Of a DNA stretch of 64,000 nucleotides, positions 164-63,156 are shown one piece after another. Both the position numbers and the translations under genes were made by a program. This DNA is from a virus. The notes beneath the pieces are model-generated. The model searched no databases, was not told where the DNA came from, and saw only the letters and a program-made list of their open reading frames with translations. Within the stretch, counting starts at the first letter, position 1. Each line of letters starts with the position of its first letter. Location of the stretch: the IMG/VR virus record IMGVR_UViG_3300009593_000015, positions 1-64,000 of that record; one strand, given 5' to 3'.

Positions 164-265
164 ATGATTACGTTAACTGAATTTGCTGCAAACAAAATTA
201 AAACACTTCTCGCCGAGAAAAAAGAACTTGCGGTTGCGGAGAGAGTTTCTCCATATAAGAACTAA
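164..265 (+). pseudogene. Broken first copy of the iscA/hesB Fe-S carrier gene
   Basis: The ATG and first 21 codons are nearly identical to the intact A-type carrier gene at 1605. The sequence then jumps to what corresponds to the last few codons of that gene. The join falls on the 8-base run AAAAAGAA (219-226), which occurs at both edges of the missing segment in the intact copy (1660-1667 and 1880-1887). About 220 bases are lost, which is not a multiple of three, so the tail is read out of frame: the CGCG cysteines are gone and a 33-residue peptide ends at TAA 263-265. The first conserved cysteine is also lost. It cannot be a working carrier. The leftover could still act as a translated leader for the gene at 274. 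Confidence 0.85.
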
Positions 266-303
266 TTATTATTATGAAGCATAAACTTATAATGGAAAAT
301 TGG
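164..303 (+). repeat. Diverged tandem copy of the iscA-to-leader cassette (partner 1605-1964)
   Basis: Bases 164-226 match 1605-1667 with about two mismatches, and bases 219-303 match 1880-1964 with a handful. The repeat begins at the iscA start codon, runs through its 3' end and the short spacer, and stops after the codons for the shared leader of the next gene (MKHKLIMENW). Beyond that the two downstream genes are unrelated. The repeat therefore joins the same carrier gene and leader to two different proteins. Confidence 0.85.
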
Positions 304-1563
304 CGACGGTTTTTGAAAGAAGCATCAGAAGCTGAAAATCAAGAAATATCACTTAAATTTTACAGAGATCCAACTGACAAAAGAGATTATGACAAGGAAC
401 CATTAACTGATCAAGAGATATCTTTACTTTCTAGTGATACTTTAAATGGCTTAATCGCCCGCAAAGCGTTGTTAATGCACATCTATGTTTACAGTGAGTT
501 GCCAGACATGTCTCCTGCTGTTAATAACATGGTTGTGGACACAGCAGAAGAATATGGAAAAGAAATATCAAAGAGAGCTGAAGAAGTGGATTGGAAACCA
601 GACTTTTCGGACAAAGAAAAAGAAGGCAAGCAAGAGACTCCTCCTCGTGCTGAGTATGTTCCATATCCTGACAATGAACATGGTCAAAATCCAGACTGCT
701 CCAGATTATCCGTCGATCCCTTGTCAGGCAACCCAAGAGACCCCAGTGTTGAATGGACATCTGAGGAATGTAGCGAAGAAGAAATGAGCAGAAATTGTTG
801 GGTCAATCTATTGACTTACAATATATTTCAAAGAAGGTCTGATCCGGTAGATATAGCTTTCACGTTCCTCAATATTAGCAATAGGTCTTACAAGGACGTG
901 TATTATGAAATATTAGACTCCTCAGGTTCTCCTGTTTCATATGAAGACCTATTTGAGCAGATGATGACGGAACAATTTGGAATAGATAAAGAATTTGATG
1001 GTGTTCCTGTCGGACTAATTCGTCACGAAGGCACTTTGGGCTTCCGACGAGTTTGGGAAACTGCGCGCTTCGATTCTCGCAGCGGAGAAAATTATCAGGG
1101 CGACCCCAATATTCATTATTCGTTTTGTCCAATTCCATCCCACTTGCATTCAAGTGAAACAAAACGAAAACTATCGACAGCACAAAAGGGCACAAAGCTA
1201 TTAATACCTTGGAAAGACCCATCTGGAGAGCCATATATGATCAGGTTCACACAAAAACCCAGTCACCCTTCTACTCCCGAACTTCCACCAGTACCAATAA
1301 ACGAATTGGGTAATCAAGGCATCGGTAGCAGAACGCTCGTAAGGGTTCCTACTGATTATTACGCTATAGACGCAGATCTTAGTGGTTTGTCAGATGACCA
1401 GTGGGATGAAATAGAATCATCACAAGAAAAATATATCCAAGCAAAAAAATCACCCTTCGTTGGCTTAAAGGTTGAAGATAGTCAAGTGATTGAGTATGAA
1501 GATTATAGTGAAGACGCTATAAAAGGATTTATGTGGAACTTCATGTTTACTATGCCTAGGTAA
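274..1563 (+). CDS. Unknown 429-residue protein with a capsid-targeting-like leader
   Basis: I do not recognise the body of this protein. It begins MKHKLIMENWRRFLKEA. From the second methionine (ATG 292) the first ten residues, MENWRRFLKE, have an aromatic at 4, Phe at 7, Leu at 8 and Glu at 10, like the T4 internal-protein leader MKTYQEFIAE. T4 leaders are cut by the prohead protease after (L/I)xE, here L-K-E. After an acidic linker to about residue 150 there is a mixed alpha/beta region with several Cys and Trp. There is no signal peptide or membrane segment. Both ATG 274 and ATG 292 are possible starts; no strong ribosome site decides. It follows the broken iscA copy by 8 bases. A role as virion-packaged cargo is inference. 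Confidence 0.6.
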   Translation: MKHKLIMENWRRFLKEASEAENQEISLKFYRDPTDKRDYDKEPLTDQEISLLSSDTLNGLIARKALLMHIYVYSELPDMSPAVNNMVVDTAEEYGKEISKRAEEVDWKPDFSDKEKEGKQETPPRAEYVPYPDNEHGQNPDCSRLSVDPLSGNPRDPSVEWTSEECSEEEMSRNCWVNLLTYNIFQRRSDPVDIAFTFLNISNRSYKDVYYEILDSSGSPVSYEDLFEQMMTEQFGIDKEFDGVPVGLIRHEGTLGFRRVWETARFDSRSGENYQGDPNIHYSFCPIPSHLHSSETKRKLSTAQKGTKLLIPWKDPSGEPYMIRFTQKPSHPSTPELPPVPINELGNQGIGSRTLVRVPTDYYAIDADLSGLSDDQWDEIESSQEKYIQAKKSPFVGLKVEDSQVIEYEDYSEDAIKGFMWNFMFTMPR

Positions 1564-1569
1564 TTATTT

Positions 1570-1598
1570 TTGACATCATCTTATTTGATTGGTATAAT
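1570..1598 (+). promoter_or_regulatory. Consensus sigma70 promoter for iscA
   Basis: TTGACA at 1570-1575 and TATAAT at 1593-1598 are separated by 17 bases: a full consensus match at both hexamers. The expected start of transcription (about 1604-1606) coincides with the iscA ATG at 1605, so the mRNA would be leaderless or nearly so. The promoter lies directly after the stop of the preceding gene and would be read by unmodified host RNA polymerase. Confidence 0.8.
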
Positions 1599-1604
1599 TA
1601 AAGT

Positions 1605-1919
1605 ATGATTACTTTAACCGAATTTGCTGCAAACAAAATTAAAACACTTCTCGCCGAGAAAAAAGAAACTGGAATCCGCGCTGGCGTACAAGGCGGCGGA
1701 TGTTCCGGTTTTACCTATCAATTAAAATTTGACAACCAAAAAGAAGGAGATAAAATAATAGAGAGTAATGGGGTCAATATTTACGTTGACCCTAAAAGTT
1801 ATTTATATCTAATGGGGACTGAAATCCATTTCGTTGATGAATTGAACCAATCTGGTTTTAAGTTTGTGAATCCAAACGCAAAAAGAACTTGTGGTTGCGG
1901 AGAGAGTTTCTCCATATAA
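1605..1919 (+). CDS. iscA: A-type iron-sulfur cluster carrier (IscA/HesB family)
   Basis: This 104-residue protein has the usual length and all three cluster-binding cysteines of the family: Cys33 in GGGCSGF, and Cys96 and Cys98 in the C-terminal CGCG. A-type carriers bind an Fe-S cluster in the cytoplasm and pass it to apo-enzymes. IscA/HesB-like genes are known in marine T4-like phages, where they may support Fe-S proteins of phage or host. The probable nuclease at 12187 carries a four-cysteine cluster pattern and is a possible client. It has its own consensus promoter whose expected start falls on the ATG. A broken second copy lies at 164. IscA, ErpA and SufA cannot be told apart here. Confidence 0.9.
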   Translation: MITLTEFAANKIKTLLAEKKETGIRAGVQGGGCSGFTYQLKFDNQKEGDKIIESNGVNIYVDPKSYLYLMGTEIHFVDELNQSGFKFVNPNAKRTCGCGESFSI

Positions 1920-1934
1920 AAACTAATTACTATT

Positions 1935-2420
1935 GTGAAGCATAAACTTATAATGGAAAATTGGAAAACCTTTCTAGAAAAAGAAGAGAAGAAAACAAAT
2001 ATATATTTTTCTGGAAAATGTACTAGATGTGATCCTGATACAGTTAGGAGCGACTACGATTTTTCCACCTGGGAAGCGACGAATGGTGAACTTATAATAA
2101 AACCACACACAGATAATAAAAAATATGAAGAATATGAAGGAAAACTTAATAAGATAATTGGCTTTTCAGCAGGAGCTACAGCGGCGATAAGGCTAAAGAA
2201 ATTCCACCTAAATGCAACACTGGTCCTTATAGACCCCTGGCTTCCAAGGCTTCCAAGAGATTATATAATACCTCCAGATGTGGAATATTACGGCACTAGT
2301 TGTTTTATCGCCAGAACCCCAAATAAAGAAAGGCTACAGAGATCTAAAAAAGAGTGCAAGCCAAAAGAGACAAAATTCGATCATCATATGAAGTATTTTA
2401 AAGATTATTTTGGTTTATGA
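1935..2420 (+). CDS. Small alpha/beta-hydrolase-like protein with capsid-targeting-like leader
   Basis: The start is GTG at 1935, or ATG at 1953 giving MENWKTFLEKEE. The leader is shared with the protein at 274 at DNA level. The remaining part of this 161-residue protein resembles a short alpha/beta hydrolase: a strand, then G-F-S-A-G at about residues 77-81, fitting a GxSxG nucleophile elbow, then strand LVLIDPWLP with an acidic residue, and a C-terminal His pair (FDHH) that could complete a Ser-Asp-His triad. It is about half the usual length, so it may be a minimal esterase/lipase or a non-catalytic relative; the substrate is unknown. It lies 15 bases after iscA and is probably co-transcribed with it. 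Confidence 0.55.
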   Translation: MKHKLIMENWKTFLEKEEKKTNIYFSGKCTRCDPDTVRSDYDFSTWEATNGELIIKPHTDNKKYEEYEGKLNKIIGFSAGATAAIRLKKFHLNATLVLIDPWLPRLPRDYIIPPDVEYYGTSCFIARTPNKERLQRSKKECKPKETKFDHHMKYFKDYFGL

Positions 2421-2455
2421 TTAAAAATAAGTTTGGAGTTATATAAAATAAAAAA

Positions 2456-3334
2456 ATGTTTCGACCTATTAGAAATCAGAGCCTTAAGCCGCTAATCGGA
2501 AACACGCCATTAATAAAAATCTCATCGCACATATACGCGAAACTAGAGACATACAATCCCGCAGGATCAGTAAAGGACAGGATGGTTTATTATGTAATTG
2601 AACGCGCCCGGATTTTTGGTAGAATAAACGAGAACAGTATTCTGTGTGAAGCAACGAGTGGAAATACTGGAATTTCGCTTTCGATGTTGGCGGCATCAAT
2701 GGGTCTGCAATGTGTTATATTTATGCCAAAAAACATGTCTCAAGAGAGGAAACAAATGATGAGTGTTTATGGTACTAAGATTATAGAAGCACCAGAGAAT
2801 GACTTTATTGGCGCAATTGCAATGAGAGATCAATATTTGTTAGCAAATGAAAATGCATGGTCACCGAAACAGTTCAGTAACCAACACAATATTTTGTGTC
2901 ATCAGACACAGACAGCACCAGAAATACACAAGCAGGCGATAGATACAAGACATAAATGGTCAGCGTTTGTCCACGGTTCCGGCACTGGTGGTACAATTGA
3001 GGGAGTAAGGAGATATATAATGAACAATAATTTAAAAACAAAAATTTGTTTAACGAGACCAGTAGAAGAAAATCATGGAATTCAGGGCATCTCAGACGGA
3101 AAGGATTTCTTATTCAACTCAGATACTGCTGACCGAATTATTGAGGTTTCAACAGAAGCATCGATTTCTCGGGCAAAAGATTTTATAAGAGAAACTGGAA
3201 TTTTGATAGGCATATCCTCAGGTGCAAATATTTTAGCATCCGAAAAATACGTAGAATCCATGAAGCCTGATGGTATAATAATAACAATGTTGTGTGATAG
3301 AGGGGAAAGATACATGTCAATTTACGACAAGTAA
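2456..3334 (+). CDS. cysK: Cysteine synthase (O-acetylserine sulfhydrylase, PLP-dependent)
   Basis: This 292-residue protein carries the diagnostic motifs of the CysK/CysM fold-II PLP family in order: GNTPL near residue 15, the PLP lysine in NPAGSVKDR (Lys40), TSGNTG (67-72) contacting substrate carboxylate, the phosphate-binding GSGTGGT (174-180), and GISSGAN (252-258). It should make L-cysteine from O-acetyl-L-serine and sulfide in the cytoplasm. It is slightly shorter than bacterial CysK (about 310-320). All catalytic motifs are intact, so activity is likely. CysK versus CysM (or a cystathionine beta-synthase-type enzyme) cannot be decided. It is an unusual gene for a phage and sits near an Fe-S carrier, where cysteine is the sulfur donor. 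Confidence 0.88.
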   Translation: MFRPIRNQSLKPLIGNTPLIKISSHIYAKLETYNPAGSVKDRMVYYVIERARIFGRINENSILCEATSGNTGISLSMLAASMGLQCVIFMPKNMSQERKQMMSVYGTKIIEAPENDFIGAIAMRDQYLLANENAWSPKQFSNQHNILCHQTQTAPEIHKQAIDTRHKWSAFVHGSGTGGTIEGVRRYIMNNNLKTKICLTRPVEENHGIQGISDGKDFLFNSDTADRIIEVSTEASISRAKDFIRETGILIGISSGANILASEKYVESMKPDGIIITMLCDRGERYMSIYDK

Positions 3335-3348
3335 AACTAATTAAAAGT

Positions 3349-5658
3349 ATGAAATATCTTAAAATTTTTAAAAAATTTCAAACATTCTTAAATGAACAGG
3401 AAAAAGAAAATTGTTCGGGAGTGGAAAACGTAGCTTGCCGCTGCGTTGACAACAGTCAAACTAATCTATCTATAGAACAGGTTCAGGAGTTTCTTAAAAA
3501 AATATATGGAACTGAAGAAGGTACAGGGTTGTCAATATCTTTTTCTGGAAAATTTGGCCACTCTGGCCCTGGAAACGCAGATGGGGTATGCGGCAAAGAG
3601 ACTAGAAATTTTATAATGAAATTTCAGACCGAAGCCGGCATTTGCGCTGACGCATGCGTCGGAACAGAAACAGAGGCTGCAATGAGAAAAAAAGATCCAA
3701 GTTTTTTTACTAGTCTGCCATCTGGCACTACATCATCCACCTCAACAGTGCCCCGAAGGCCGAGCACGAGCTTAAATTCAACTCAATCTACAAGTCAAGA
3801 CAATAGAAGAGATTCTGAAACCGGTGAAGGCCCCCTCTCAGCAACGCCCTCGATAATTGCTTCCTCTGGTGTCACAATATCCATCAAGGCCGCCAATCCA
3901 ACCCCTGGTGGTTATATTTCAGCAGGCCTTGGCAAAAATCACCATGGATATCAAGGAAAATTTGTAAAACCTAAGATATCAACAGACGACGCAGGTATGA
4001 TTAATGCCGTTAATTTTCAGGGCCCATTGAATTCTGCGAAGGGTATTACCGCTCAATCTCACAGAAAAAACACACAATGGGGAAACCCTGTTTTACTTTC
4101 TTTGCTTATAGCCGCATCTGCCCATGTTGTTAATTACGTAGTAAATAAGAAAGAGTCTTTCAAGACGTCGGATTCTATTGAACTTTGGAATGTTTCGAAA
4201 AAACACGGCGGGCCCCTATACAAGCACGCCGGTCACCAATCTGGGTTGGAGTGTGATATAGGCTTCTACAAAAAAAATGGAAGACCTGATATAGAAAGAA
4301 ATGCTGTTTTTTTAGAGTTCCTGTTAAGTCAAGAAGCTGTTGAATCTGTGCTACTCGACAAAACATCAGGTCCTGTTTCTGTTTCAAAGATGAGAGCATG
4401 GATTACGGCTAACAACTTGAAGGAAAAATTTCCAAAAGTCATGAATTCTAATAATAATTCCAAGCCACAATTAGCACCTGCTTCACCGGGTTCCCACGAC
4501 GATCATTATCACATAAGATGCCACTTTCCAGATGGTTCACCGTCAATGTCTGATTATACAAGAGATGAGAAGCTCGCGCAAAAATCAAATCAAATGCCCG
4601 GCGCACCAGTTTCTGCCAGAGGCGGCCCAAGAAAAGTTAAGATAAATGTCCAAAAGACCAAGAGGTACGGTTTCACAAAAAGATATCATTCCCTTCGGGA
4701 CAAAACAATAGACGAAATTATTAAACAATACGGACTCTCATTCTCTTTTACTTTCGGTGTGATAGACGGGGATAACGGCATGCCACAAATCTTAGAACAT
4801 CACAATCAAGAGTCTCCATTTACTGGGGCATCGATGCCTAAAACAATGGCAGCATTAGCACACTTGATAACATATAGTCCTAAGAATCCTGAAAATAAAA
4901 ATAATAAAAATTACAGCCCAGATAGTCAAATCAACGACTGTGAAGTAAAAGCTCTGTTAACTTATTGGAGTCGCGAAAGTGAAAAAAGAAATATCCCGCA
5001 AGGAGAAAAGTGTAAAAAATTTCATGATTCAAATTACACATTATCAGCCATCTCTGGTACTGACAGACGACGTAAAAAGCGCCGACGCAAATACGGATTC
5101 AGAAATAAACTTGGAGTGCTAAGTAAAAAGCAGATCAGAAAAGTTTCAGAAAAGTTTGGAATAACAAAAAAAAGTACTTTCACTTTCGGCGCAAATCACC
5201 AGACCAGCAAAGACATGTTTTTATTCTTCGCCGGTTTAGCCAGGATGGATCAAGAAAAACTATCAAAAATTGACCCTCTTTATACTCTTTACCATGGTGA
5301 TGCCTCAATCGGTGAACCCTCTTATAAAGAAGAGGTAAAGAGTTTAATAGCCATTCAAAAAATGAGAACATACTCAAGAAAAATGACATCCTCAGGTGCA
5401 ATGAGCATTAAGGGTTATAAGTCTTGGGGTAAAGGGGGATTAAGCAACGGGTCAGTCAATTTTGCATGGGTGGTAAGAGGTAGAGACGGCAGAACTTATG
5501 TGCTGTCGGTTTATTCTCTCTTAAAGTGGGAATACCCACTTCCGAAATCAGCATCTCAACAGGAGAAAGCAGATAGAGCAGCAAGGATATATAAAAATAA
5601 TTCTCATGGCTACGATCTAGTAAATGCAGTTTTATATAAATTAATGGAGAAAACATAA
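3349..5658 (+). CDS. Three-part murein enzyme: PG-binding domain, MepA-type endopeptidase, SxxK serine-hydrolase domain
   Basis: The protein has 769 residues. The N-terminus MKYLKIFKKFQTFLNEQE has a leader-like aromatic-x-x-FLxE and no signal peptide. Residues 40-117 fit a peptidoglycan-binding repeat (helix, DGVCGKETRNFIMKFQ, VGTETEAAM). A Ser/Thr/Pro linker follows (120-170). Residues 180-400 match penicillin-insensitive murein endopeptidase (M74, MepA): HAGHQSGLECD gives His296 and Asp303 in the MepA spacing, and HDDHYH gives His383, His386 and His388, the zinc and catalytic set. From about 440 to the end the chain has SMPK (Ser495-Lys498), a possible SxN-like site near 560, and KGG (695-697), the order of motifs in beta-lactamase/DD-carboxypeptidase folds. 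It should cut peptide cross-links in murein; the serine domain could trim D-Ala or be binding only. Its stop overlaps the next start (TAATG). Confidence 0.8.
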   Translation: MKYLKIFKKFQTFLNEQEKENCSGVENVACRCVDNSQTNLSIEQVQEFLKKIYGTEEGTGLSISFSGKFGHSGPGNADGVCGKETRNFIMKFQTEAGICADACVGTETEAAMRKKDPSFFTSLPSGTTSSTSTVPRRPSTSLNSTQSTSQDNRRDSETGEGPLSATPSIIASSGVTISIKAANPTPGGYISAGLGKNHHGYQGKFVKPKISTDDAGMINAVNFQGPLNSAKGITAQSHRKNTQWGNPVLLSLLIAASAHVVNYVVNKKESFKTSDSIELWNVSKKHGGPLYKHAGHQSGLECDIGFYKKNGRPDIERNAVFLEFLLSQEAVESVLLDKTSGPVSVSKMRAWITANNLKEKFPKVMNSNNNSKPQLAPASPGSHDDHYHIRCHFPDGSPSMSDYTRDEKLAQKSNQMPGAPVSARGGPRKVKINVQKTKRYGFTKRYHSLRDKTIDEIIKQYGLSFSFTFGVIDGDNGMPQILEHHNQESPFTGASMPKTMAALAHLITYSPKNPENKNNKNYSPDSQINDCEVKALLTYWSRESEKRNIPQGEKCKKFHDSNYTLSAISGTDRRRKKRRRKYGFRNKLGVLSKKQIRKVSEKFGITKKSTFTFGANHQTSKDMFLFFAGLARMDQEKLSKIDPLYTLYHGDASIGEPSYKEEVKSLIAIQKMRTYSRKMTSSGAMSIKGYKSWGKGGLSNGSVNFAWVVRGRDGRTYVLSVYSLLKWEYPLPKSASQQEKADRAARIYKNNSHGYDLVNAVLYKLMEKT

Positions 5659-6155
5659 TGAAGAAAGTTAGAATAAAAATAGTCGAATCAAATACATGCG
5701 ACCCATGTTCCGCCTCTGGAAAGTACCCAGCAGAAAACCCAGCATCTCCGGATTCTACAATGGACAAACACATGCACACTAGTGATTGTGAAAAGCCCCC
5801 TGTTGATTATAAAAATGCTACAAATGGCCAAGAGTCCAGAATGCACAGAACCACATTGGCTCATCTTGTGGCAGACGTAAAAGTATTGCTCGACCTAGTA
5901 AAAGACGAAGATGATCTTCCGGAGTGGCTTGAAACTAAAATAACGAAAGCGGGAGATTATATGTCTAGTGCTGCAAGATATGTAGCGGGGAATATTGCAA
6001 GAGATCAAGGACAGCTCGAAGAACAAGCTATCAAAATAACAGCCGACGTTGTAAAAGGTTTGATCGACAATTTGGAAGTATCGGCTTTAAACCAAGAAGC
6101 GCTTTCTAGTTTGTACGCTGCTTTAAGTGGATTATCTAGTACACAAACTTCTTGA
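5658..6155 (+). CDS. Small phage protein with a helical motif common in marine phages
   Basis: This 165-residue protein starts inside the stop of the murein enzyme (TAATG), so the two are translationally coupled. The N-terminus MKKVRIKIVES ends in I-V-E, a possible prohead-protease site. A Cys-rich stretch (CDPCSASG) follows. At about residues 79-110 is the acidic-then-amphipathic segment DDLPEWLETKITKAGDYMSS, a motif that recurs in small proteins of marine T4-like phages; its function is not established. The C-terminal half is predicted helical and could form a coiled coil. There is no signal peptide or membrane span. It might be another packaged protein or a partner of the murein enzyme; both are guesses. 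Confidence 0.6.
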   Translation: MKKVRIKIVESNTCDPCSASGKYPAENPASPDSTMDKHMHTSDCEKPPVDYKNATNGQESRMHRTTLAHLVADVKVLLDLVKDEDDLPEWLETKITKAGDYMSSAARYVAGNIARDQGQLEEQAIKITADVVKGLIDNLEVSALNQEALSSLYAALSGLSSTQTS

Positions 6156-6189: not shown

Positions 6190-6792
6190 ATGATTAGAAT
6201 TATTGGAAAAATACCCCCGAATGTTGTTATAGCCTGTTCGGGTGGAGTTGACAGCATGGTAGTGACACACTTTCTCCTACAGGGAAGGAGAAATGTTAAG
6301 TTAGCCTTCTTTAATCACGACACTCTACACAGTAAGCATGCCCAAAGATTCGTTGAAGAATTTGCGCAAGAAAAAAAACTTGATTTGTTTATTGGGGGCA
6401 TAAAAGGGGTGAAAGGTAAAAGGTCAATAGAAGAGTTTTGGAGAGACGAGCGATACAATTTTTTTAATAGGATATCTGCGGATTTTTTAATTACATGTCA
6501 TCATCTTGATGATGGAGTAGAAACGTGGATAATGTCGGCAATGCACGGCCGCTGTAAACTTATACCATACCAAAGAGGTAAAAATATATTTCGGCCCTTT
6601 TTGATGACTTCAAAGAAGACAATTAAGCAATACGCCGAAAATAAAAAATTAGATTGGGTAGAGGACCCGACAAATGCAAGGACAGAATATATTAGAAACC
6701 ACATTAGGCATACTATGATGCCAAACGTACTAAAGGTAAACCCAGGTATAAGAACTATGATAAGGAAAAAATTAATTGAAAGTTATTTATAA
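6190..6792 (+). CDS. tilS: tRNA(Ile)-lysidine synthase, minimal N-terminal form
   Basis: This 200-residue N-type ATP pyrophosphatase has the PP-loop SGGVDS (residues 17-22), the TilS signature HHLDDGVET (near 104-112), and the family-specific DPTNARTEYIRNHIRH followed by a VNPG segment. TilS converts C34 of tRNA-Ile2 (anticodon CAU) to lysidine so that it reads AUA and is charged with Ile. The protein consists of the catalytic domain alone; bacterial TilS proteins are commonly 300-450 residues with C-terminal domains that help bind tRNA. A matching CAU tRNA gene lies 634 bases downstream. Ten of the 19 Ile codons in tilS itself are ATA and none is ATC, in line with a need for AUA decoding. 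It is driven by the promoter at 6152. Confidence 0.9.
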   Translation: MIRIIGKIPPNVVIACSGGVDSMVVTHFLLQGRRNVKLAFFNHDTLHSKHAQRFVEEFAQEKKLDLFIGGIKGVKGKRSIEEFWRDERYNFFNRISADFLITCHHLDDGVETWIMSAMHGRCKLIPYQRGKNIFRPFLMTSKKTIKQYAENKKLDWVEDPTNARTEYIRNHIRHTMMPNVLKVNPGIRTMIRKKLIESYL

Positions 6793-7702: not shown

Positions 7703-8337
7703 GAGATCAGTTTTGGGGCTCTGTCGAAGAGAAAGAAACTAGTGATCCAATTACTGTGGCACAATCATGTCAAGAAACACTTGGACATGCTTCTACAGAT
7801 TTCAATGTTGTAGATACTAGTCATAATAGAATATTTTTCTATTCAGGGGTAACTAGGCCAAAAATACTTCAATTAAATAAAAATATTTTTAACCTGAATG
7901 TTAATATGCTTTCCAAAACCGGCCCTCTGGAATATGAACCTCCTCCTATTAAGCTTCACATTAATAGTTACGGAGGTTCTGTGTTTGCAGGTTTGTCGGC
8001 ACTAGATTATATAAAAAATTCTAAAGTACCGGTGCATACAATTATAGATGGATGCGCCGCCTCAGCCGCTACTTTAATGTCATGTGTTGGCGCCCATCGC
8101 CAAATGCATAGAAATTCTTTCATGCTAGTCCATCAACTATCCGGCGCCATGTGGGGAAAATTCCAAGAAATGGAAGATGATTTTGAAAACTCAAAGATGC
8201 TTATGAATAAAATAAAAAACATCTACAGCGAGCATACAAAAATACCGAAGAGAGAAATGGATAAAATCTTAAAACATGATTTGTGGTGGGAAGCTGAAAA
8301 GTGTCTACAGTACGGATTAATAGACGAAATTATATAA
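7699..8337 (+). CDS. clpP: ClpP-like serine protease
   Basis: The 212-residue protein has the ClpP fold signature: INSYGGSVFAGL (substrate-binding GG), the nucleophile Ser122 in CAASAATLM, catalytic His145 in FMLVHQ, and Asp194 in KHDLWW before the C-terminal EYGL(V/I)D-like strand (QYGLIDEI). It is likely to form barrel-shaped peptidases with a Clp ATPase, here the host's because no ClpX/A is in the window. ClpP genes are known in cyanophages. The N-terminal 40 residues differ from bacterial ClpP and may replace the usual propeptide. It is translationally coupled to the small gene upstream. A head-maturation protease of the S14 type is an alternative, but the gene is far from capsid genes. 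Confidence 0.87.
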   Translation: MRDQFWGSVEEKETSDPITVAQSCQETLGHASTDFNVVDTSHNRIFFYSGVTRPKILQLNKNIFNLNVNMLSKTGPLEYEPPPIKLHINSYGGSVFAGLSALDYIKNSKVPVHTIIDGCAASAATLMSCVGAHRQMHRNSFMLVHQLSGAMWGKFQEMEDDFENSKMLMNKIKNIYSEHTKIPKREMDKILKHDLWWEAEKCLQYGLIDEII

Positions 8338-8339
8338 AT

Positions 8340-8660
8340 ATGAATATTTTTGAAAATATATTCGGTCCGGCAGAATCTCAAAAAATCAGATCACCCGAGG
8401 CCTCTTTGGAACTTATAAATACTTATATTGGTGATGATGTAGAAATTATGAATTTGACATCTCACAATCGATATGTCTATTTTGAGGGCAGAGATAATAT
8501 ATACCACTTTACAGTAAAGTTGCTTTCTTTGGGCTTTTTATCTAAATTAGGAAAAGACAATAGGGTAAAAAATGTTTTCTTCTCTGCCAGGCATGCCCCA
8601 CCAGGAGGAGGAGCAGATTCAATAACTCTTCGTCAAAAAATTTTAATAGAATATCACTAG
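8340..8660 (+). CDS. Small hypothetical protein after clpP
   Basis: ATG 8340 lies two bases after the clpP stop; a longer reading from 8301 would run inside clpP and is unlikely. The product has 106 residues (MNIFENIFGP...), with a strand-rich middle (YVYFEGRDNIYHFTVKLLSLGFLSKL) and a Gly/Pro turn near the end. I recognise no family. Tight spacing to clpP suggests one operon. It converges with the minus-strand protease gene, whose stop is one base away, with no hairpin between them. Confidence 0.65.
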   Translation: MNIFENIFGPAESQKIRSPEASLELINTYIGDDVEIMNLTSHNRYVYFEGRDNIYHFTVKLLSLGFLSKLGKDNRVKNVFFSARHAPPGGGADSITLRQKILIEYH

Positions 8661-8661
8661 A

Positions 8662-9402
8662 CTATATTTCTTTTATTTTTTTCTTGGTTTGCTTTATAAA
8701 CAATTTAAAAGATTTATAGTTTGTAATAAGGGTTAAATGTGGAAATTTTGGTGTAGAAGCAAATAAGACACCAACAATCTCATTTTTAGAATTCAACACC
8801 GCAGACCCTGAAGCTCCACCAGTGGCTGGAAAAGTCACTAAAGCAGACGACGCGTCAATATTGCCGCTAAAAATTCCTTCAAATATTGCAACACTTGGAA
8901 AGTGATATACGCCAAGGGGGGCGCCCATATATCTTAATCTCTCTCCTATGTCCGGTTTTTTAATGGAAATCTTTACTTTTTTTACTTCTAAGGTTGGAAC
9001 CCACAATACACAGTGATCACCACTTCCAGCGAAATCAACAAAACTTTTATTCAAAACCCAAGCTTGATGAGTATTACCTCTATAGTCTAATACTTTTATC
9101 GTTTGTAGATATTTATCTATTAAAGCTTTAGGTTGTGAATCACAAACGTGCCCGGCAGTAATTACCGTCATTAACTTCCTGTCTAAGTCAATCGCCATCC
9201 CACTTCCAGAATTGTAATATTGTCCTATTGGACAATTTTTATCTTTTTTGTCTTTGCAAGAGATTATTTTTATAGTATGTAGGATTTTTACAAAACTTTT
9301 GGACGGTGGAGTAATCGTTTTACTATTTACCCGAGAAACTGTGCAACAGTTGAGAAATAAAAAACAAAAAGTTAAAAATATTACTTGTTTTAATCTGTTC
9401 AT
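8662..9402 (-). CDS. Secreted trypsin-like serine protease, probable lipoprotein
   Basis: This is the only minus-strand gene in the window. The 246-residue protein starts with a signal peptide (MNRLK, then a hydrophobic core) ending in LNCC, compatible with lipid attachment at Cys19 or Cys20 although not a textbook lipobox. The chymotrypsin-fold triad is readable: His85 in ITAGHVC, Asp129 in GSGDHCVL, Ser198 in GGASGSAV. Two strands after the serine (EIVGVLFAS) fit the family. It would act in the periplasm or on the outer membrane. Its own orientation, export signal and position between operons fit a moron-type gene acting on the host envelope or on competing phage or bacterial proteins. The substrate is unknown. 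Confidence 0.85.
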   Translation of the reverse strand: MNRLKQVIFLTFCFLFLNCCTVSRVNSKTITPPSKSFVKILHTIKIISCKDKKDKNCPIGQYYNSGSGMAIDLDRKLMTVITAGHVCDSQPKALIDKYLQTIKVLDYRGNTHQAWVLNKSFVDFAGSGDHCVLWVPTLEVKKVKISIKKPDIGERLRYMGAPLGVYHFPSVAIFEGIFSGNIDASSALVTFPATGGASGSAVLNSKNEIVGVLFASTPKFPHLTLITNYKSFKLFIKQTKKKIKEI

Positions 9403-9450
9403 ATATAATAACTACTTTTAAAAAACATAAAAAATCAAAAAGGAGAAAAA

Positions 9451-9642
9451 ATGTTTTTATTTAATTTTGCCACAATATTGGTGTTGTTTACATCACAACA
9501 CATAGAAAAAACCAACAATTCAAAGTACTTTGAGTCTCTTGAATTGCAAAAATATAACGCGACTTTTCATTATGAAAAAAAAAATTATAACAAAATACCT
9601 ACACCTTTAATAAAAATTGATAAAATTTCTAATTATTACTGA
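9451..9642 (+). CDS. Very small probable exported protein
   Basis: The 63-residue ORF has a clear ribosome site (AGGAG at 9441-9445, six bases before ATG). Residues 1-15 are hydrophobic (FLFNFATILVLFTS) without a basic start, then a polar Lys/Asn/Tyr-rich tail. It is divergent from the protease gene, sharing a 48-base intergenic region. It could be a short membrane-anchored peptide. No family recognised; it is supported mainly by the ribosome site. Confidence 0.45.
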   Translation: MFLFNFATILVLFTSQHIEKTNNSKYFESLELQKYNATFHYEKKNYNKIPTPLIKIDKISNYY

Positions 9643-9648
9643 TATAAT
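9639..9648 (+). promoter_or_regulatory. Possible extended -10 promoter before phoH
   Basis: TATAAT at 9643-9648 is preceded by TG one base upstream (TGATATAAT), the extended -10 form that can work without a good -35. It overlaps the stop of the small gene upstream. Transcription would start near 9655, leaving a short leader with GGA before the TTG start of phoH. Confidence 0.4.
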
Positions 9649-9668
9649 AGATTAGAAAAGGAACGATT

Positions 9669-10985
9669 TTGGCCAAAAAAACTTACGTACTAGATACTAG
9701 CGTCTATCTTACCGATGCTAATTGTATTAAATCTTTTAAAAACAATGATATATTAATACCACTAAAGGTTTTAGAAGAGATAGATAAACACAAAAAAAGA
9801 CAAGACTTGGTTGGTGCACAAGCAAGAGCAACAATCAGAAAGTTAGATGAATTAAGATCTAAAGGATCCCTCTCAAAAGGGGTGAGAATAGAAAAGGGTC
9901 TAGGTCTAATAAAAGTAAAGTCATATAATCCACTGTGCCTACCAGATGATTTAGATTTGGATGACTCAGACAATCAGATTATTGCAACAGCACTCTCGGA
10001 AAAAGAAGCATTAGAGACAGTCACAAGAAAAATAGTAGTTGTCTCTAGAGATATAAATATGAGGGTGAAGTGTGACTCTTTGGGGCTGCTAACGGAAGAC
10101 TATCAAGTCGAACAAGTCGTAGAGTCATCAGAGGGTTTATACACTGGACGTTCAGAGGTCTTAATTGATGAACAAGAAATAGATAAATTTTATGAAGGTA
10201 AGGAGGTTTGGTTATCTAAAGAAGAGTTTTCTTTGAGTCCAAATCAGTTTGTGATGTTGATAGCGAATAGTAACCCTAAGAAATCGGCCCTAGCAAGATT
10301 TGTTGGTTATAATTCTCCATTAAAGAAAATATTAACCTCCAACAAAAAAATTTGGTCTACAACAGCAAGAAACAAGGAACAACAGTTTGCGTTGGAACTT
10401 TTGATGGATCCGATGGTTCCAGTTGTATCTCTTGTCGGAAAAGCCGGATCAGGCAAGACTTTATTGGCACTTGCTGCAGGCCTGGAGCAGACATTTCAGC
10501 AAAACATATATAAAAAAATAGTAGTAACAAAGCCAGTAGAACCAGTTGGTAAAGATATTGGGTTTCTTCCCGGAACCATGGAAGAGAAGATGATGCCATG
10601 GCTAGCGCCTATACAAGATAATTTGCAATTCCTAATGGGTGACCACCGAGCGACATTGGAGATGTACATCGAGAAAGGGCAAATAGAGGTAGAGGCGATG
10701 ACCTTCATTCGAGGAAGGTCTATCTCAAATGCGTTCATAGTTATCGACGAGGTTCAAAACATGACACAGCACGAAATAAAAACAGTCTTAACAAGAGTTG
10801 GTGAAGGTACTAAGATCGTCTTAACAGGAGATATAGAACAAATAGACAATGTTTATATTGATGCTACTAATAATGGGCTGTCATATGTGGTGGAAAGGTT
10901 AAAAAACGAATCAATCACTGGCCATGTGACTCTCTTAAAAGGAGAGAGATCAAAGGTAGCATCTCTTGCGGCAGTAAAACTATAA
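9669..10985 (+). CDS. phoH: PhoH-family ATPase with N-terminal PIN domain
   Basis: Translation begins at TTG 9669 (MAKKTYVLDTSV), preceded by AAGGA; no ATG is available near. Residues 1-150 form a PIN-type RNase domain (acidic Asp9 in VLDTSV, further Asp/Glu clusters such as LDDSDNQIIATA and SRD). The C-terminal half is a PhoH ATPase: Walker A GKAGSGKT (about 257-264), VTKPVEPVGKDIGFLPG, and Walker B FIVIDEVQNM (about 355). PIN-PhoH (PhoH2-type) proteins have ATP-dependent RNA helicase and ribonuclease activity. Most phage PhoH proteins carry only the ATPase domain, so the fused form is notable. It probably acts on RNA in the infected cell; the role in phages is unsettled. Confidence 0.87.
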   Translation: MAKKTYVLDTSVYLTDANCIKSFKNNDILIPLKVLEEIDKHKKRQDLVGAQARATIRKLDELRSKGSLSKGVRIEKGLGLIKVKSYNPLCLPDDLDLDDSDNQIIATALSEKEALETVTRKIVVVSRDINMRVKCDSLGLLTEDYQVEQVVESSEGLYTGRSEVLIDEQEIDKFYEGKEVWLSKEEFSLSPNQFVMLIANSNPKKSALARFVGYNSPLKKILTSNKKIWSTTARNKEQQFALELLMDPMVPVVSLVGKAGSGKTLLALAAGLEQTFQQNIYKKIVVTKPVEPVGKDIGFLPGTMEEKMMPWLAPIQDNLQFLMGDHRATLEMYIEKGQIEVEAMTFIRGRSISNAFIVIDEVQNMTQHEIKTVLTRVGEGTKIVLTGDIEQIDNVYIDATNNGLSYVVERLKNESITGHVTLLKGERSKVASLAAVKL

Positions 10986-12248: not shown

Positions 12249-13002
12249 CTTCTCTGAGTTCAAGAACTGGCGAGAGTGTCCGTATAGACATAAACTAATC
12301 CATATAGACAAGGTTCCATATTTTGAAAGCAATGAATTTACTGCTTTCGGAATCGCAATGCACGAGGCTTGCGAGAAAACCTTTCCAAAAAATAGAAAAA
12401 ATCTATACCAGGTTTTTCAGAAAAGCTTTGATTTAGAGTTAAAAAAAATAAAAAACAAATCTCTGAACCAAGACCTTGTGAGTGACATGTACATGCAGGC
12501 AAAAACAGTTTGCAAACAAATTGTTCCAAAAATAGACGAATATTTCGAAGAATATGAGGTCTTTTCTGTCGAAGAAGCTCTCTTTGAAAAAATAGATGAG
12601 TTTGATTCACACGGCCGTAGCTTTAAGGGGTTTGTAGATATGATATTGAAAACCCCGGATGGCAAATTTCACATCATAGATTGGAAAACTTGTTCCTGGG
12701 GATGGAACAGTAATAAGAAGAGTGACCCTATTACTAACTACCAGTTGACATATTATAAAAATTACTTCTCAAAGAAATACAATATAGAAGCAAAAAATAT
12801 CGATACATATTTTGTCCTTCTTAAAAGGACCGCGAAGAGGGAAAATGTAGAAGTGGTGAAGACAACTTCAGGGCTCAAAAAAACTGAAAACTCTTTAAAA
12901 CTTTTAGAAAATGCTGTTATAAATATAGAAAATAAAGTTTTTATTAAAAATAGACTTAATTGTAAATATTGCAAATTTTACAGGACAGAGCATTGTAGAT
13001 GA
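12187..13002 (+). CDS. PD-(D/E)XK nuclease of the RecB/Cas4 type with probable Fe-S cluster
   Basis: The 271-residue protein has the RecB-family nuclease layout: SFSEFKNWRECPYRHKL at the N-terminus, a helix with a His (AMHEAC), the metal-binding GFVDMIL then IIDWKT (Asp and Glu/Asp-x-Lys core), and motif QLTYYK. One cysteine in WRECPYR and three in the C-terminal CKYCKFYRTEHC match the four-cysteine iron-sulfur pattern of Cas4, AddB and related nucleases. It is probably a 5'-3' or structure-specific DNA exonuclease acting in replication or recombination. No CRISPR genes are near, so a phage recombination role is more likely than spacer capture. The ATG at 12187 overlaps the preceding gene; no closer start codon is obvious. 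Confidence 0.8.
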   Translation: MKQQKNQQEEKDLLNEQKRISFSEFKNWRECPYRHKLIHIDKVPYFESNEFTAFGIAMHEACEKTFPKNRKNLYQVFQKSFDLELKKIKNKSLNQDLVSDMYMQAKTVCKQIVPKIDEYFEEYEVFSVEEALFEKIDEFDSHGRSFKGFVDMILKTPDGKFHIIDWKTCSWGWNSNKKSDPITNYQLTYYKNYFSKKYNIEAKNIDTYFVLLKRTAKRENVEVVKTTSGLKKTENSLKLLENAVINIENKVFIKNRLNCKYCKFYRTEHCR

Positions 13003-14258
13003 CAAAAAGAAAAATATTAGTAATTGCAGATTCCCCGTTGGTGCCTTCCGGAGTAGGCACTCAGACAAAATATATGATAGACTCCTTGCTGAAAACCGGA
13101 GAGTACAAATTTTTATGTCTAGCCGGCGCCATTAAGCATAGAGATTATAGGACAATAAAAACAGAAGAGTGGGGTGATGATTGGTTAATCAAGCCAGTAG
13201 ATGGATACGGAAACCCTGAAATATTGAGAGCAGTAATAAGAGATTTCAAGCCAGATGTTTTATGGTTTATGACTGATCCTCGTTTTTACGTATGGTTATG
13301 GAAAATGGAAAATGAAATCCGGCCTTACGTACCAATGGTCTATTACCATGTATGGGACAATTATCCATATCCGATGTTTAATAAAAAATTCTACGATTCA
13401 AACGACATGGTTTGTACCATAAGTAAAGTAACAGACGATATAGTGAAGACAGTGTCCCCAGATATTATATCGAGAAGGGTTCCTCACACTGTTGATACAA
13501 ATATATTCAAGAAAACAGAGAACAAAAAAGAAGTTCAAAAATTTAGAAATTTTATTTGTAAAGGAAAAGAAAAAATGATTTTCTTTTGGAATAATAGGAA
13601 TGCAAGGAGAAAACAGCCCGGATCTTTAATTTATTGGTTTAAAGAATTCTTAGATATTGTAGGTCATGAAAACGCCTGCCTCCTGATGCACACAGAACCA
13701 AGAGATCCTCACGGGCAAGATTTGCAAGAAATTATTAATAATTTAAAACTCAACAAACACAATCAAGTCCTTCTTTCAACGGAAAAATTGCAACCTGATA
13801 AGTTAGCAAATCTATATTCCTCGGCAGATTGCACAATTAATATTTCAGATGCCGAAGGGTTTGGTTTAGCCACGCTAGAATCACTATCTTGTGAAACACC
13901 AATTATTGTGAATATGACAGGCGGTCTACAAGAGCAGGTAACAGACGGCACCTCTTGGTTTGGTATTGAGATTTACCCCTCCTCTAAGTCTGTCATAGGT
14001 TCGCAGGATGTCCCATATATATATGAAGATAGGATCAATGGAGAAGAGTTTGTTGGCAAATTAGTTGAATTTTATAACTTACCTAAAATAGAACGAGAAG
14101 AAATGGGAAAAAAAGGCAGAGATCACGTATTGAATAATTTTGGCATAGAACAGTATTGCGAAAACTGGAAAAAAGTTATGAATGACGTCATCGATCGATG
14201 CGGTTCTTGGGACACTAGAAAAGATTATAAAAGCTGGTACTTTGGAGAAATAAAATGA
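12999..14258 (+). CDS. GT-B glycosyltransferase (GT4-like), first of the glycan operon
   Basis: The 419-residue protein fits a two-domain GT-B enzyme. The N-terminal domain starts with strand ILVIADSP and a glycine loop (PSGVGTQTKYM); the C-terminal donor domain ends with DAEGFGLATLESLSCETPIIV followed by GG (about residues 283-310), the E-x7-E type nucleotide-sugar site of GT4. It should transfer a sugar from an NDP-sugar to a growing glycan in the cytoplasm. Donor and acceptor cannot be read. It overlaps the nuclease stop and the next gene by ATGA, indicating coupled translation. Confidence 0.85.
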   Translation: MTKRKILVIADSPLVPSGVGTQTKYMIDSLLKTGEYKFLCLAGAIKHRDYRTIKTEEWGDDWLIKPVDGYGNPEILRAVIRDFKPDVLWFMTDPRFYVWLWKMENEIRPYVPMVYYHVWDNYPYPMFNKKFYDSNDMVCTISKVTDDIVKTVSPDIISRRVPHTVDTNIFKKTENKKEVQKFRNFICKGKEKMIFFWNNRNARRKQPGSLIYWFKEFLDIVGHENACLLMHTEPRDPHGQDLQEIINNLKLNKHNQVLLSTEKLQPDKLANLYSSADCTINISDAEGFGLATLESLSCETPIIVNMTGGLQEQVTDGTSWFGIEIYPSSKSVIGSQDVPYIYEDRINGEEFVGKLVEFYNLPKIEREEMGKKGRDHVLNNFGIEQYCENWKKVMNDVIDRCGSWDTRKDYKSWYFGEIK

Positions 14259-15556
14259 AGATTTTACTAGAAGGACCAATTCTCACACAGTCCGGATACG
14301 GCGAACATACACGTTTAGTCTATAAATCTCTTAAACTAAATGATAAAAATAAAGTATATGTAAACCCTCTTCGATGGGGTAATACTACTTGGAGTTTGGA
14401 AGAAAATCCTGTAAATAAAAATATAGAAAAAGACATAAGAGCTTTGGGAGACATTTCCCTGAAAGCTCAAAAGGAAAATAGTGATACAAAATTTGATTTA
14501 CATGTGCATGTAGGAATTATAAATGAATTCGTTCCAAAAGCACTAAAAAGTATTTGCATAACTGCAGGTATAGAGACAGATAGGGTATCTGACGACTGGC
14601 TTTTGCGAACATACCAAAACCAGCCGTCAAAAATAATAGTCCCATCATCACACGCAGCAAACGGATTCTTAAATAGTCGACATGCCGTCTTAGAACCGAA
14701 AACTAACACCCAGCATGAAATTGGATATAACATGGATTGCCCAATGGAAATTATACCTTATCCTGTGAAAAAAGTCTCACCTGAAGATATAGATATTGAC
14801 TTAGAAACTGACTTCAATTTTCTTTCAATAGCTCTATCAGGCCCCAGAAAAAACTTAGAAGATTTGGTTCGTTGCTTTTTGGAAGAATTCAAAGATGAAT
14901 CCGTCGGCCTAGTACTCAAGACGGCAGGAGCAAATGGTTCGATTATTGACAGACACTTTACAATTGAAAGACTCGAAAAGCTGATCAGAAAAGACAAAAA
15001 TAGAAAATGTAAGATATATTTATTACACGGAGATTTATCCGAGAGTCAAATTCATTCCCTTTATCAAAGAGATGATATACATGCCTACGTTACTGCCACT
15101 CGCGGAGAGGGATATGGACTTCCAATATTTGAAGCAGCATATAGCGGAATGCCAGTTGTAGCAACAGACTGGTCAGGGCATTTAGATTTTCTTCAGGCTC
15201 CCTTTAAAGAGGGAGGAAAAGTAAAAATAAAAAAACTCTTCGCAAAAGTAAACTATAAATTAGAAAAAATACACCCATCAGCCGTGTGGGATAAAGTTCT
15301 CATAGCAGATTCAAAATGGGCCCAAATCGATGAATCTTCCCTTAAAAGACAAATGAGAAATGTACTAAAATCGCACGGAAGATATAAGAAGTGGGCAAAG
15401 GCACTACAAGAGTATATACTAGAAAACTACGAAGAAAAGAAAATTTTGAGAAAATTAGAAGAATCTTTGACAGGTAAATCGATGTTTTCTACAGAAATGC
15501 ATTATAAAAAATTAAACAAGAGAAAGCAAAGTTTAGAAATTTCAGGAACACTTTAA
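14255..15556 (+). CDS. Second GT-B glycosyltransferase (GT4-like)
   Basis: The 433-residue protein starts MKILLEGPILTQSGYGEHTR, the first strand and glycine loop of the GT4 fold, and has the donor-site segment TRGEGYGLPIFEAAYSGMPVVATDWSG split around residues 281-308. A short insertion (residues 145-155, PKTNTQHE) precedes the linker. It is a paralogue in fold of the preceding gene but clearly distinct, so the two probably add different sugars. It overlaps the first GT gene by four bases (ATGA) and is followed by 16 bases before the next gene. Confidence 0.85.
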   Translation: MKILLEGPILTQSGYGEHTRLVYKSLKLNDKNKVYVNPLRWGNTTWSLEENPVNKNIEKDIRALGDISLKAQKENSDTKFDLHVHVGIINEFVPKALKSICITAGIETDRVSDDWLLRTYQNQPSKIIVPSSHAANGFLNSRHAVLEPKTNTQHEIGYNMDCPMEIIPYPVKKVSPEDIDIDLETDFNFLSIALSGPRKNLEDLVRCFLEEFKDESVGLVLKTAGANGSIIDRHFTIERLEKLIRKDKNRKCKIYLLHGDLSESQIHSLYQRDDIHAYVTATRGEGYGLPIFEAAYSGMPVVATDWSGHLDFLQAPFKEGGKVKIKKLFAKVNYKLEKIHPSAVWDKVLIADSKWAQIDESSLKRQMRNVLKSHGRYKKWAKALQEYILENYEEKKILRKLEESLTGKSMFSTEMHYKKLNKRKQSLEISGTL

Positions 15557-15572
15557 ATTTTAGGAATAAATT

Positions 15573-16271
15573 ATGGAAGAAAATATAAAAAAAGAAAAAG
15601 ATATACCATTCAGTTTTTGCATCATAACAGATAATTCAGATGAAGCCATTCCAAGAATAGAGGAGACAATTGATTCAATCCGACTATTAAGGATACCAGA
15701 ATTTGAAATCTTAATAATAGGAGGCACCGGAAATAAAATCACCAGATCTGGCAGTAACATAAAAAAGATAGATTTTAATGAGTCTACAAAATCTGCTTGG
15801 CTAACTAAGAAGAAGAATACAATCGCAAAGCATTGCAAATATGAAAACATAGTCATGTTTCATGATTATTTCATTTTTCACTTTAGTTGGTACTTTTATT
15901 ACAAACAATTTTTTAACAAATATGAATATGATATATGTTGTAACCCTATTCTAATGATGGACGGAAGAAGAGATTACACTGACTGGCTTACTTGGGACCA
16001 CCCAACAATTGGCCAACAAATCAGCTTACCATATAGTGACTGGAAATATACTAAAAACCAATATGTTAGTGGTGGTTATTTTTTAGTTAAAAAACAGTTT
16101 TTGATTGATAACCCCTTCGATGAAAGCCTTGCCGCCGGCGACCCTGAAGATGTTGAGTGGAGCCTCCGAGTTAGAGATAAAGCAAAAATAATTTGTAACC
16201 CTTATTCTTACTGTAAGCAAACAAAGGAACATAGAAATCTAAGAGTAGATTTATGGAATAGATTATTATGA
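15573..16271 (+). CDS. GT-A glycosyltransferase (GT2-like)
   Basis: The 232-residue protein has the Rossmann start FSFCIITDNSDEAIPRIEETIDSI of family-2 transferases, a hydrophobic strand followed by FHDY where GT2 enzymes carry the metal-binding DxD, a glycine/acceptor region VSGGYFLVKKQ, and GDPEDVEWSLR, matching the conserved ED catalytic-base motif. A small, single-domain cytoplasmic enzyme without membrane spans. The DxD is reduced to H-D, so metal use may differ. ATGA overlap with the phosphatase gene downstream supports joint expression. Confidence 0.75.
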   Translation: MEENIKKEKDIPFSFCIITDNSDEAIPRIEETIDSIRLLRIPEFEILIIGGTGNKITRSGSNIKKIDFNESTKSAWLTKKKNTIAKHCKYENIVMFHDYFIFHFSWYFYYKQFFNKYEYDICCNPILMMDGRRDYTDWLTWDHPTIGQQISLPYSDWKYTKNQYVSGGYFLVKKQFLIDNPFDESLAAGDPEDVEWSLRVRDKAKIICNPYSYCKQTKEHRNLRVDLWNRLL

Positions 16272-17499: not shown

Positions 17500-17509
17500 A
17501 TAAAAAATT

Positions 17510-18139: not shown

Positions 18140-18141
18140 CA

Positions 18142-20006: not shown

Positions 20007-20017
20007 TATGAGAGATA
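20000..20017 (+). repeat. 18-base direct repeat, left copy (right copy 20758-20775)
   Basis: The bases from the end of the preceding gene through the ATG and third codon of the sulfotransferase gene are identical over 18 positions to 20758-20775, which span the start of the transketolase gene. The two copies flank the sulfotransferase gene exactly from start codon to start codon. Recombination between them would remove that gene cleanly. Confidence 0.75.
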
Positions 20018-20745: not shown

Positions 20746-20757
20746 AACAACGAGAAA

Positions 20758-20775
20758 GAATTAATATGAGAGATA
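20758..20775 (+). repeat. 18-base direct repeat, right copy (left copy 20000-20017)
   Basis: Identical to 20000-20017. It covers the end of the spacer and the first codons (MRD...) of the transketolase N-subunit gene. Both genes therefore begin with Met-Arg-Asp from the same DNA, although the proteins are unrelated. Confidence 0.75.
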
Positions 20776-21882: not shown

Positions 21883-21885
21883 AAA

Positions 21886-22635: not shown

Positions 22636-22638
22636 AAA

Positions 22639-62540: not shown

Positions 62541-62711
62541 ATGGAAATCACAAAAAGAAGACTAAAGGAAATCATTGCAGAAGAAATGAATCACTTAGCA
62601 GAGACAGGCGATCTTAATATGATCACCGAAGCAGAAAAGAAGGCATTCGCCATTATACTTGAAAAGCTTACTCCAAAGCAATTGGAAGAGATAGGCCTTA
62701 AAAGGGTTTGA
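62541..62711 (+). CDS. Small protein with leader-like N-terminus (MEITKRRLKEIIAEE)
   Basis: ATG 62541 has AAGGAG six bases upstream, better than the in-frame ATG 21 bases earlier. The 56-residue protein begins MEITKRRLKEIIAEEMN, an amphipathic helix ending in I-A-E, the T4 prohead-protease consensus. Similar starts (basic, then IIxEE) recur on unrelated short proteins of marine phages. The rest (KKAFAIILEKLTPKQLEEIG) is another helix. It could be a packaged internal peptide or a replication accessory, by position. Confidence 0.6.
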   Translation: MEITKRRLKEIIAEEMNHLAETGDLNMITEAEKKAFAIILEKLTPKQLEEIGLKRV

Positions 62712-62712
62712 T

Positions 62713-63156
62713 ATGAAAAAATCAGAACTCATTAAGATTATAAAAGAAGAGGCAGACTTTGTGCTAAAGGAGCTCTACATGGTGGATAGCCCAGTGGAAA
62801 TTGGAGCACAAGCAAACCTTCAGACTGCCTTGAAGTCCAAAAACAAACAAAAAATTGAAAGAGCAATTGAACATATCAAGAGCCTTGGCCAAGGCCAGGG
62901 CACGGTTTCATCTGCCGCCCTTGCTATAGCTGGCGCGCTCACTGGTGCCACTGCAGCAGAGGCCTTATTTGCAATCAAGCTAGCGCTTCAGGATATGTCT
63001 ACAATGGCATTCATGAGAATTTACAAACTCTTGCCAGCAGGCATTCAAAACACTCTCTTCACATCAGTCCGCGATTCAATCTCGTCAACCGGCAAGGGAG
63101 GCGATGCAATGCGTCAGGTGTTCATCGAAATGTCGAAAATCCTCCAAAAAACTTGA
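62713..63156 (+). CDS. Small protein with leader-like N-terminus and a hydrophobic Ala-rich helix
   Basis: The 147-residue protein starts one base after the previous stop. MKKSELIKIIKEEADFV again has a short basic helix ending in I-K-E-E. Later residues 80-105 form an Ala/Gly-rich hydrophobic helix (SSAALAIAGALTGATAAEAL) that could insert in a membrane or pack in a capsid. Its TGA overlaps the -35 box of the downstream promoter. No family recognised. Possible cargo in the same sense as the genes at 274-5658. Confidence 0.6.
   Translation: MKKSELIKIIKEEADFVLKELYMVDSPVEIGAQANLQTALKSKNKQKIERAIEHIKSLGQGQGTVSSAALAIAGALTGATAAEALFAIKLALQDMSTMAFMRIYKLLPAGIQNTLFTSVRDSISSTGKGGDAMRQVFIEMSKILQKT

Follow-up and report, generated by a model that had tools for sequence, protein, structure and literature searches.

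A putative capsid-targeting leader on unrelated proteins of an uncultured virus

Why should neighbouring phage genes encode proteins that begin alike and have nothing else in common? The question is raised by one end of the stretch analysed here (the window), which is the first 64 kb of the 78,250-bp linear viral record IMGVR_UViG_3300009593_000015, a fragment whose ends were not joined. Three open reading frames (ORFs) starting at positions 274, 1935 and 3349 carry a short N-terminal leader, which an earlier note on this DNA had likened to the capsid-targeting sequence (CTS) of T4 internal proteins. We consider it very probable (about 0.88) that the leader is a CTS equivalent to that of the T4 internal proteins, and from this we infer docking, cleavage, packaging and injection for this phage. 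This reading draws on the leader itself, its register, the boundary of its conservation, the prohead protease gene, a conserved cleavage site of the major capsid protein (MCP), the diversity of the cargo and the absence of the leader from controls.

The leader and the T4 capsid-targeting sequence

The three ORFs are present as the earlier note had described them, each with a leader of 16 residues in identical register (Table 1), and past the leader the proteins are unrelated to each other. Counted from the start Met, the aromatic positions are W10 and F13 in 274 and 1935, and F10 and F13 in 3349. The cleavage-type motif (hydrophobic-x-Glu) reads FLKE in 274 and FLNE in 3349, while 1935 has FLEKE, which is not exact. 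The proposed motif scan of N-termini, using aromatic-x-x-[FY]-[LIVM]-x-E, gave two exact matches among the 75 predicted genes of the window, where the rate in internal 24-residue windows (0.0025) would predict about 0.2, a modest excess over chance. The motif is decisive only because of comparative data from beyond the window.

The consensus of the leader is MK(x)LI-MENWxxFLxE, and a DNA pattern for MENWxxF-L-x-E matched at least 119 stretches in IMG/VR. With the 274 protein as query, ten IMG/VR loci matched its first 16 to 32 residues only. The fetched loci hold 222 distinct leader proteins in about 127 cargo clusters (blastp E-value 1e-3; a lower bound for IMG/VR), with up to 10 leader genes in a single phage; unrelated cargo behind a common leader, as noticed in the window, is seen across 110 to 127 clusters. 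The leader was found in 0 of 3,638 ORFs of randomly sampled viral contigs and a reversed pattern gave no match (25 records), while a stricter leader pattern matched nothing in 257 Gb of prokaryote genomes, as against at least 119 viral stretches. A tblastn search with the 20-residue leader against isolate phages gave no match, with the limit that so short a query can escape detection; no cultured bearer of the exact leader was therefore found, and the bearers are uncultured, mostly marine-type phages.

Alignment of 110 unrelated cargos on the Trp gave 4.2 bits for W, 3.1 for F/Y, 2.5 for L and 3.5 for E, followed by 0.9, 0.3 and 0.2, revealing that conservation ends at the Glu. The second aromatic place is F or Y in 104 of the 110 (a profile selected on ENW/ESW), and a hydrophobic-x-Glu stands exactly at positions 8-10 in 97, or in 100 if a shift of one residue is allowed. 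In this profile the search itself selected for W and EN and, in part, for F, L and E; the latter three are therefore better judged on 39 leaders outside the search patterns, of which 35 (34 without the FLE of 1935) have [LIVMF]xE within 11 residues, compared with 15% of background windows. Where the spacing is altered, the LxE often returns a few residues downstream. Over the 110 cargos the leader codons vary synonymously (Leu as CTT, CTC, TTA, TTG or CTA; Arg as AGA, CGA, CGC or CGT; Glu as GAA or GAG) while the residues stay fixed, and the peptide is therefore under selection.

With the M of MENW as position 1, the key residues become W4, F7, L8 and E10, and the suggested likeness to T4 extends position by position to the CTS of IPIII. 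Mutagenesis of the latter assigned targeting to residues 4 and 7 and processing to residues 8 and 10, and a CTS with Asp at position 10 is targeted and stays uncleaved (PMC9026906). The CTSs of T4 IPI, IPII and IPIII have the same 10-residue core, with an aromatic residue at 4, Phe at 7, Ile or Leu at 8 and Glu at 10; inspection of the T4 record confirmed MKTYQEFIAE/A for IPII and IPIII and SFLTE/A for gp23 (a slash marks the cut). At 16 residues, all three window leaders lie within the 10-19 residues of the short propeptides of the T4 type. Unlike the T4 CTS, the leader has an additional N-terminal extension of 4-6 residues, MK(HK)LI, and Trp at position 4. As in the T4 internal proteins, one leader stands on unrelated, exchangeable cargo; the T4 leader is cut by gp21, whereas here cleavage is a prediction, the lineage is uncultured, and the cargo families are far more numerous (about 127, up to 10 per phage). 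The T4 ADP-ribosyltransferase Alt is likewise a packaged enzyme with a short propeptide cut by gp21 (PMC9026906), although its leader is different. No Alt homologue was found among the window proteins scanned. The head propeptides of SPN3US and phiKZ are longer and have another cleavage motif. Many head-packaged proteins of these phages are likewise cut by a phage prohead protease, according to two reports (PMC5694885, PMC10052503), and DarA and Hdf of P1, head-associated antirestriction proteins in another (PMC12810830), are comparable by description.

Head genes and virion proteins of relatives

A gp21-like prohead protease had been predicted elsewhere in the genome, and it was found outside the window in the same record, at 73.6-74.3 kb, as a Peptidase_S77 gene (PF03420, E-value = 2e-31) that also matches the PHROG head maturation protease (E-value = 9e-56). 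The head cluster has the T4 order, TerL-portal-protease-scaffold(-like)-MCP, and when nine capsid proteins are aligned, the MCP of the record has LLRE/A at the gp23 cleavage site FLTE/A of T4. Terminase comparison places Flavobacterium phage immuto and Microcystis phage Mel-JY01 closest among isolates, at 42-45% identity. In several relatives, leader genes adjoin the protease or lie in the interval from it to the portal gene, and T4 core proteins 67 and 68 occupy the corresponding place. Of the 14 leader-bearing records that reach 135 kb, 13 encode Peptidase_S77; its base rate is 4 of 10 randomly sampled large viral records, none of those four with the leader, and the co-occurrence is therefore supportive, not decisive. 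An adjacency of the leader cluster to the major capsid gene was dropped from consideration, as the 78-kb record is a fragment with unjoined ends. Two further genes of the head cluster were observed. One is conserved directly after the protease (record positions 74260-74658), where a head core protein would lie, and starts with MKKSELKSIIKECVKEVLFEEG, resembling the second leader type described below; the other is a small ribosomal-protein-S21-like gene (74643-74906, PHROG E-value = 1e-4), also present in relatives and in Mel-JY01.

One of the MENW-leader proteins is an S-adenosylmethionine (SAM) lyase (PF23780, E-value = 9e-14), and its homologues in isolates have differing N-termini, nearly all of them with hydrophobic-x-E immediately before a conserved SSLSR-like start. 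The variants include MENWQRFLVE/SSLSR, MQFKQYILGE/SSLSR (Mel-JY01), MKTFKEFLEE/SSLSR (marine AG-345 viruses) and ...SLEE/SSLSR (here a slash marks the boundary), and the homologue of P-TIM68 has a leader, MKTYKEFIQDIQE, close to the T4 CTS.

Virion proteomics exists for the T4-like cyanophage S-CREM2, in whose purified virions 52 proteins were detected by mass spectrometry (PMC10665884). With a motif fixed beforehand from the earlier note, aromatic-x-x-[FY]-[LIVM]-x-[ED] within the first 24 residues, we found 3 of the 52 virion-detected proteins matching versus 0 of 167 others (p = 0.013), or 3 of the 28 detected proteins that are non-structural or of unknown function (p = 0.003), one of the three matches, the SAM hydrolase, having been met before the test and hence not blind. 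The three are the SAM hydrolase, an APH-like kinase and a cytidylyltransferase, with the leaders MKDFDSFLEE, MKRFDAFLTE and MKNFSSFLTE, respectively. MENW leaders are likewise carried by SAM lyase, protein-kinase-like and cytidylyltransferase-like proteins; the wording of the S-CREM2 leaders, which fit the motif, differs from MENW. No leader is reported in the available part of the S-CREM2 paper (PMC10665884). By eye, CTS-like starts were also seen on S-CREM2 proteins detected by mass spectrometry (MKDLHSFLTE, MQTFSMFFSE). Additionally, the virion-detected gp12 of S-CREM2 (7704-10313 of its sequence), annotated as a CRISPR-associated endonuclease Cas9/Csn1, has RFASFMAE followed by A at its N-terminus, leader-like with a longer extension.

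Weighing the explanations

As a CTS, the leader would act during head assembly, its N-terminal residues, chiefly the Trp or Phe at CTS position 4 and the Phe at 7, docking the precursor on the prohead scaffold core. The S77 prohead protease would cut after (L/I/V)xE and free the cargo inside the capsid, from which it would leave together with the DNA when the next cell is infected. The cargo would then be an exchangeable set of early-acting effectors.

Several points weigh against this. For this lineage the reading comes from sequence and gene content, and the S-CREM2 comparison is one of small counts (three proteins). Most leader cargo, among 109 proteins searched, has no Pfam family, and a murein enzyme is hardly what one would expect as cargo destined for the cytoplasm. 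The leader is lineage-specific, being absent from the S77-bearing random large contigs. The leader of 1935, which the earlier note had rightly named its weakest match, has no exact [LI]xE; by analogy with the T4 CTS carrying Asp at position 10, the 1935 protein may be targeted and left uncleaved.

Among the alternatives, the one that survives best, unlikely as we judge it, is that the proteins are packaged and not injected, with a role in building the prohead such as T4 IPIII has in part. Loss of IPIII slows head assembly in T4 (PMC9026906) and some leader genes lie within the head operon, yet the SAM lyase, NUDIX, kinase, zeta-toxin-like kinase and nucleotidyltransferase cargos are enzymes with cytoplasmic substrates, and up to ten different leader genes in one genome fit such a role poorly. 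A good deal less probable is targeting elsewhere than the capsid interior, for instance to the tail or baseplate of the virion, or to an infection compartment. The peptidoglycan-active cargo of 3349 would suit a tail and one other cargo has LysM; against this, the leader has its register and cleavage motif in common with the T4 head core system, leader genes lie beside portal and protease, and the authors of the S-CREM2 study regarded the counterparts there as possibly encapsidated. Very improbable, and rejected, is a common start that acts purely at the DNA or translation level, as a recombination cassette or ribosome-binding leader whose peptide does nothing: the 274 and 1935 leaders do share DNA within a duplicated unit whose homology ends inside the leader, but codons vary while residues stay fixed over the 110 cargos, and divergent leaders keep the spacing. 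Chance resemblance to the T4 CTS, which the two exact motifs of the window could by themselves still suggest, has a negligible probability and was rejected on the control ORFs, the reversed pattern and the prokaryote search.

Cargo, neighbouring genes and meaning of the leader

Pfam searches of the 109 leader proteins returned zeta-toxin-like kinases, NUDIX, SAM lyase, PAP2, protein kinase, a 2H-phosphoesterase-type domain, nucleotidyltransferase and GNAT, each in one or two proteins, and PADLOC gave four matches to candidate or named systems in the cargo set. By eye, two leader cargos with LYHAS/VYHYTS starts and no Pfam match (L073:2348-2764 and L036:1776-2891) look ADP-ribosyltransferase-like. 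Concerning the window, 274 and 1935 have no assigned function, and 3349 is a predicted peptidoglycan enzyme. As for the murein endopeptidase fusion proposed for 3349, its middle is Peptidase_M74-like, matching the Peptidase_M74 (MepA) profile with an E-value of 1.9e-5 and 24.9 bits, just under the curated cut-off of 25. The metal-binding-type motifs HQSGLECD at residue 296 and HDDHYH at 383 (HxxGxxxD and HxxHxH-like) are intact, and we take them to be the metal-ligand motifs of MepA. The C-terminal SxxK...KGG domain (GASMPK at 493, GKGG at 694) recurs in a MENW-leader protein from a different phage (E-value = 5e-10), which supports the divergent 3349 leader as an equivalent one. The assignment of 1935 as an alpha/beta hydrolase, on the other hand, is not supported; apart from a GFSAG string, it has no Pfam family at E-values up to 1 and no convincing PDB match. 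No whole-protein relatives of 3349 and 1935 were found among viral contigs, and AlphaFold2 models of the 3349 C-terminal domain and of 1935 (mean pLDDT 36.5 and 34.4, respectively) were unusable for fold search.

The leader DNA that 274 and 1935 had been said to share in front of different cargo is identical at 71 of 76 positions (229-304 versus 1890-1965), the homology stopping at the Trp codon, and a second arm upstream (164-226 versus 1605-1667) is identical at 61 of 63. The two arms record the duplication of an 'IscA gene + leader' unit, followed by loss of the central part of the left IscA copy. In a related contig, IscA lies immediately before the PALP gene also present in the window, with the leader gene missing, and leader genes therefore come and go.

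The two further short leaders that the earlier note had listed at 62541 and 62713 are real, but they form a distinct N-terminal family and are not of the 274/1935/3349 type. Their starts resemble MK(I/L)TKxxLKQIIKEEL, a second type found in 56 proteins of the fetched loci and in 0 control ORFs, often in tandem in the head cluster. A conserved domain of the gene at 5658-6155, LPEWLExKITKAGDYMSSAARYI, has three different N-terminal leaders in other loci, namely a short start ending in ...IxE, a type-2 start (L087) and a position inside a MENW-leader protein (L030). The leader types may therefore be interchangeable, which from such sequence comparisons is a lead and not a result.

Table 1. Coordinates of leaders, leader-bearing genes and associated features in the window.
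Feature	Position	Strand	Remarks
Type-1 leader, cargo 1: MKHKLIMENWRRFLKE	274..321	+	Predicted cut after E16; profile of 110 unrelated cargos
Leader-bearing protein, 429 aa, cargo without assigned function	274..1563	+	ATG start; IMG/VR relatives match leader residues only, 1-17 to 1-32
Type-1 leader, cargo 2: MKHKLIMENWKTFLEK	1935..1982	+	GTG start; no exact LxE
Leader-bearing protein, 161 aa	1935..2420	+	GFSAG motif only, no family match
Divergent type-1 leader: MKYLKIFKKFQTFLNE	3349..3396	+	Predicted cut after E16
Leader + PG_binding_1 + Peptidase_M74-like murein endopeptidase + C-terminal SxxK/KGG domain	3349..5658	+	769 aa; ATG start
Candidate further cargo, short leader MKKVRIKIVE (relatives ...KITE, ...NIAE)	5658..6155	+	
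Type-2 leader protein, MEITKRRLKEIIAEE...	62541..62711	+	
Type-2-like leader protein, MKKSELIKIIKEE...	62713..63156	+	
Duplicated 'IscA + leader' unit, internally deleted IscA remnant	164..304	+	Arms 164-226 and 229-304; tandem partner 1605-1967
Intact IscA/ErpA-type Fe-S carrier gene between both MENW-leader genes, leader-free	1605..1919	+	PF01521, E-value = 9e-23

Beside the leader genes, the window encodes a cysteine-synthase-like PALP enzyme (2456-3334) and a PP-loop (TilS-like) protein (6190-6792). Further on, glycosyltransferase, nucleotidyltransferase and sulfotransferase-like genes at 12999-23103 probably form a surface-sugar cluster, as judged by eye, and a single ORF of 3,320 residues (26660-36622) lies within the structural region.

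A literature search joining 'capsid targeting sequence' and 'cyanophage', with most subscription journals and all preprints outside its scope, returned only a T4 review. On balance we favour the view that a large uncultured, mostly marine T4-like lineage has an open cargo platform, in which one conserved leader and at least one interchangeable type (MKITKxxLKQIIKEEL) would bring well over 100 families, and up to ten or more effectors per virion, into the capsid, SAM lyase, kinases, NUDIX and peptidoglycan enzymes among them. If so, the N-terminal tag would be a searchable label for injected effectors. As a rule, the proteins that a phage injects before its own synthesis begins come to light only through proteomics of cultured phages; as the leader matches the T4 head-targeting label, it offers a route to infer injected proteins from sequence, by which uncultured viromes would become a catalogue of candidate injected effectors of counter-defence and host take-over. 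The leader would also lend itself to use as a tag by which test proteins could be packaged in such phages.

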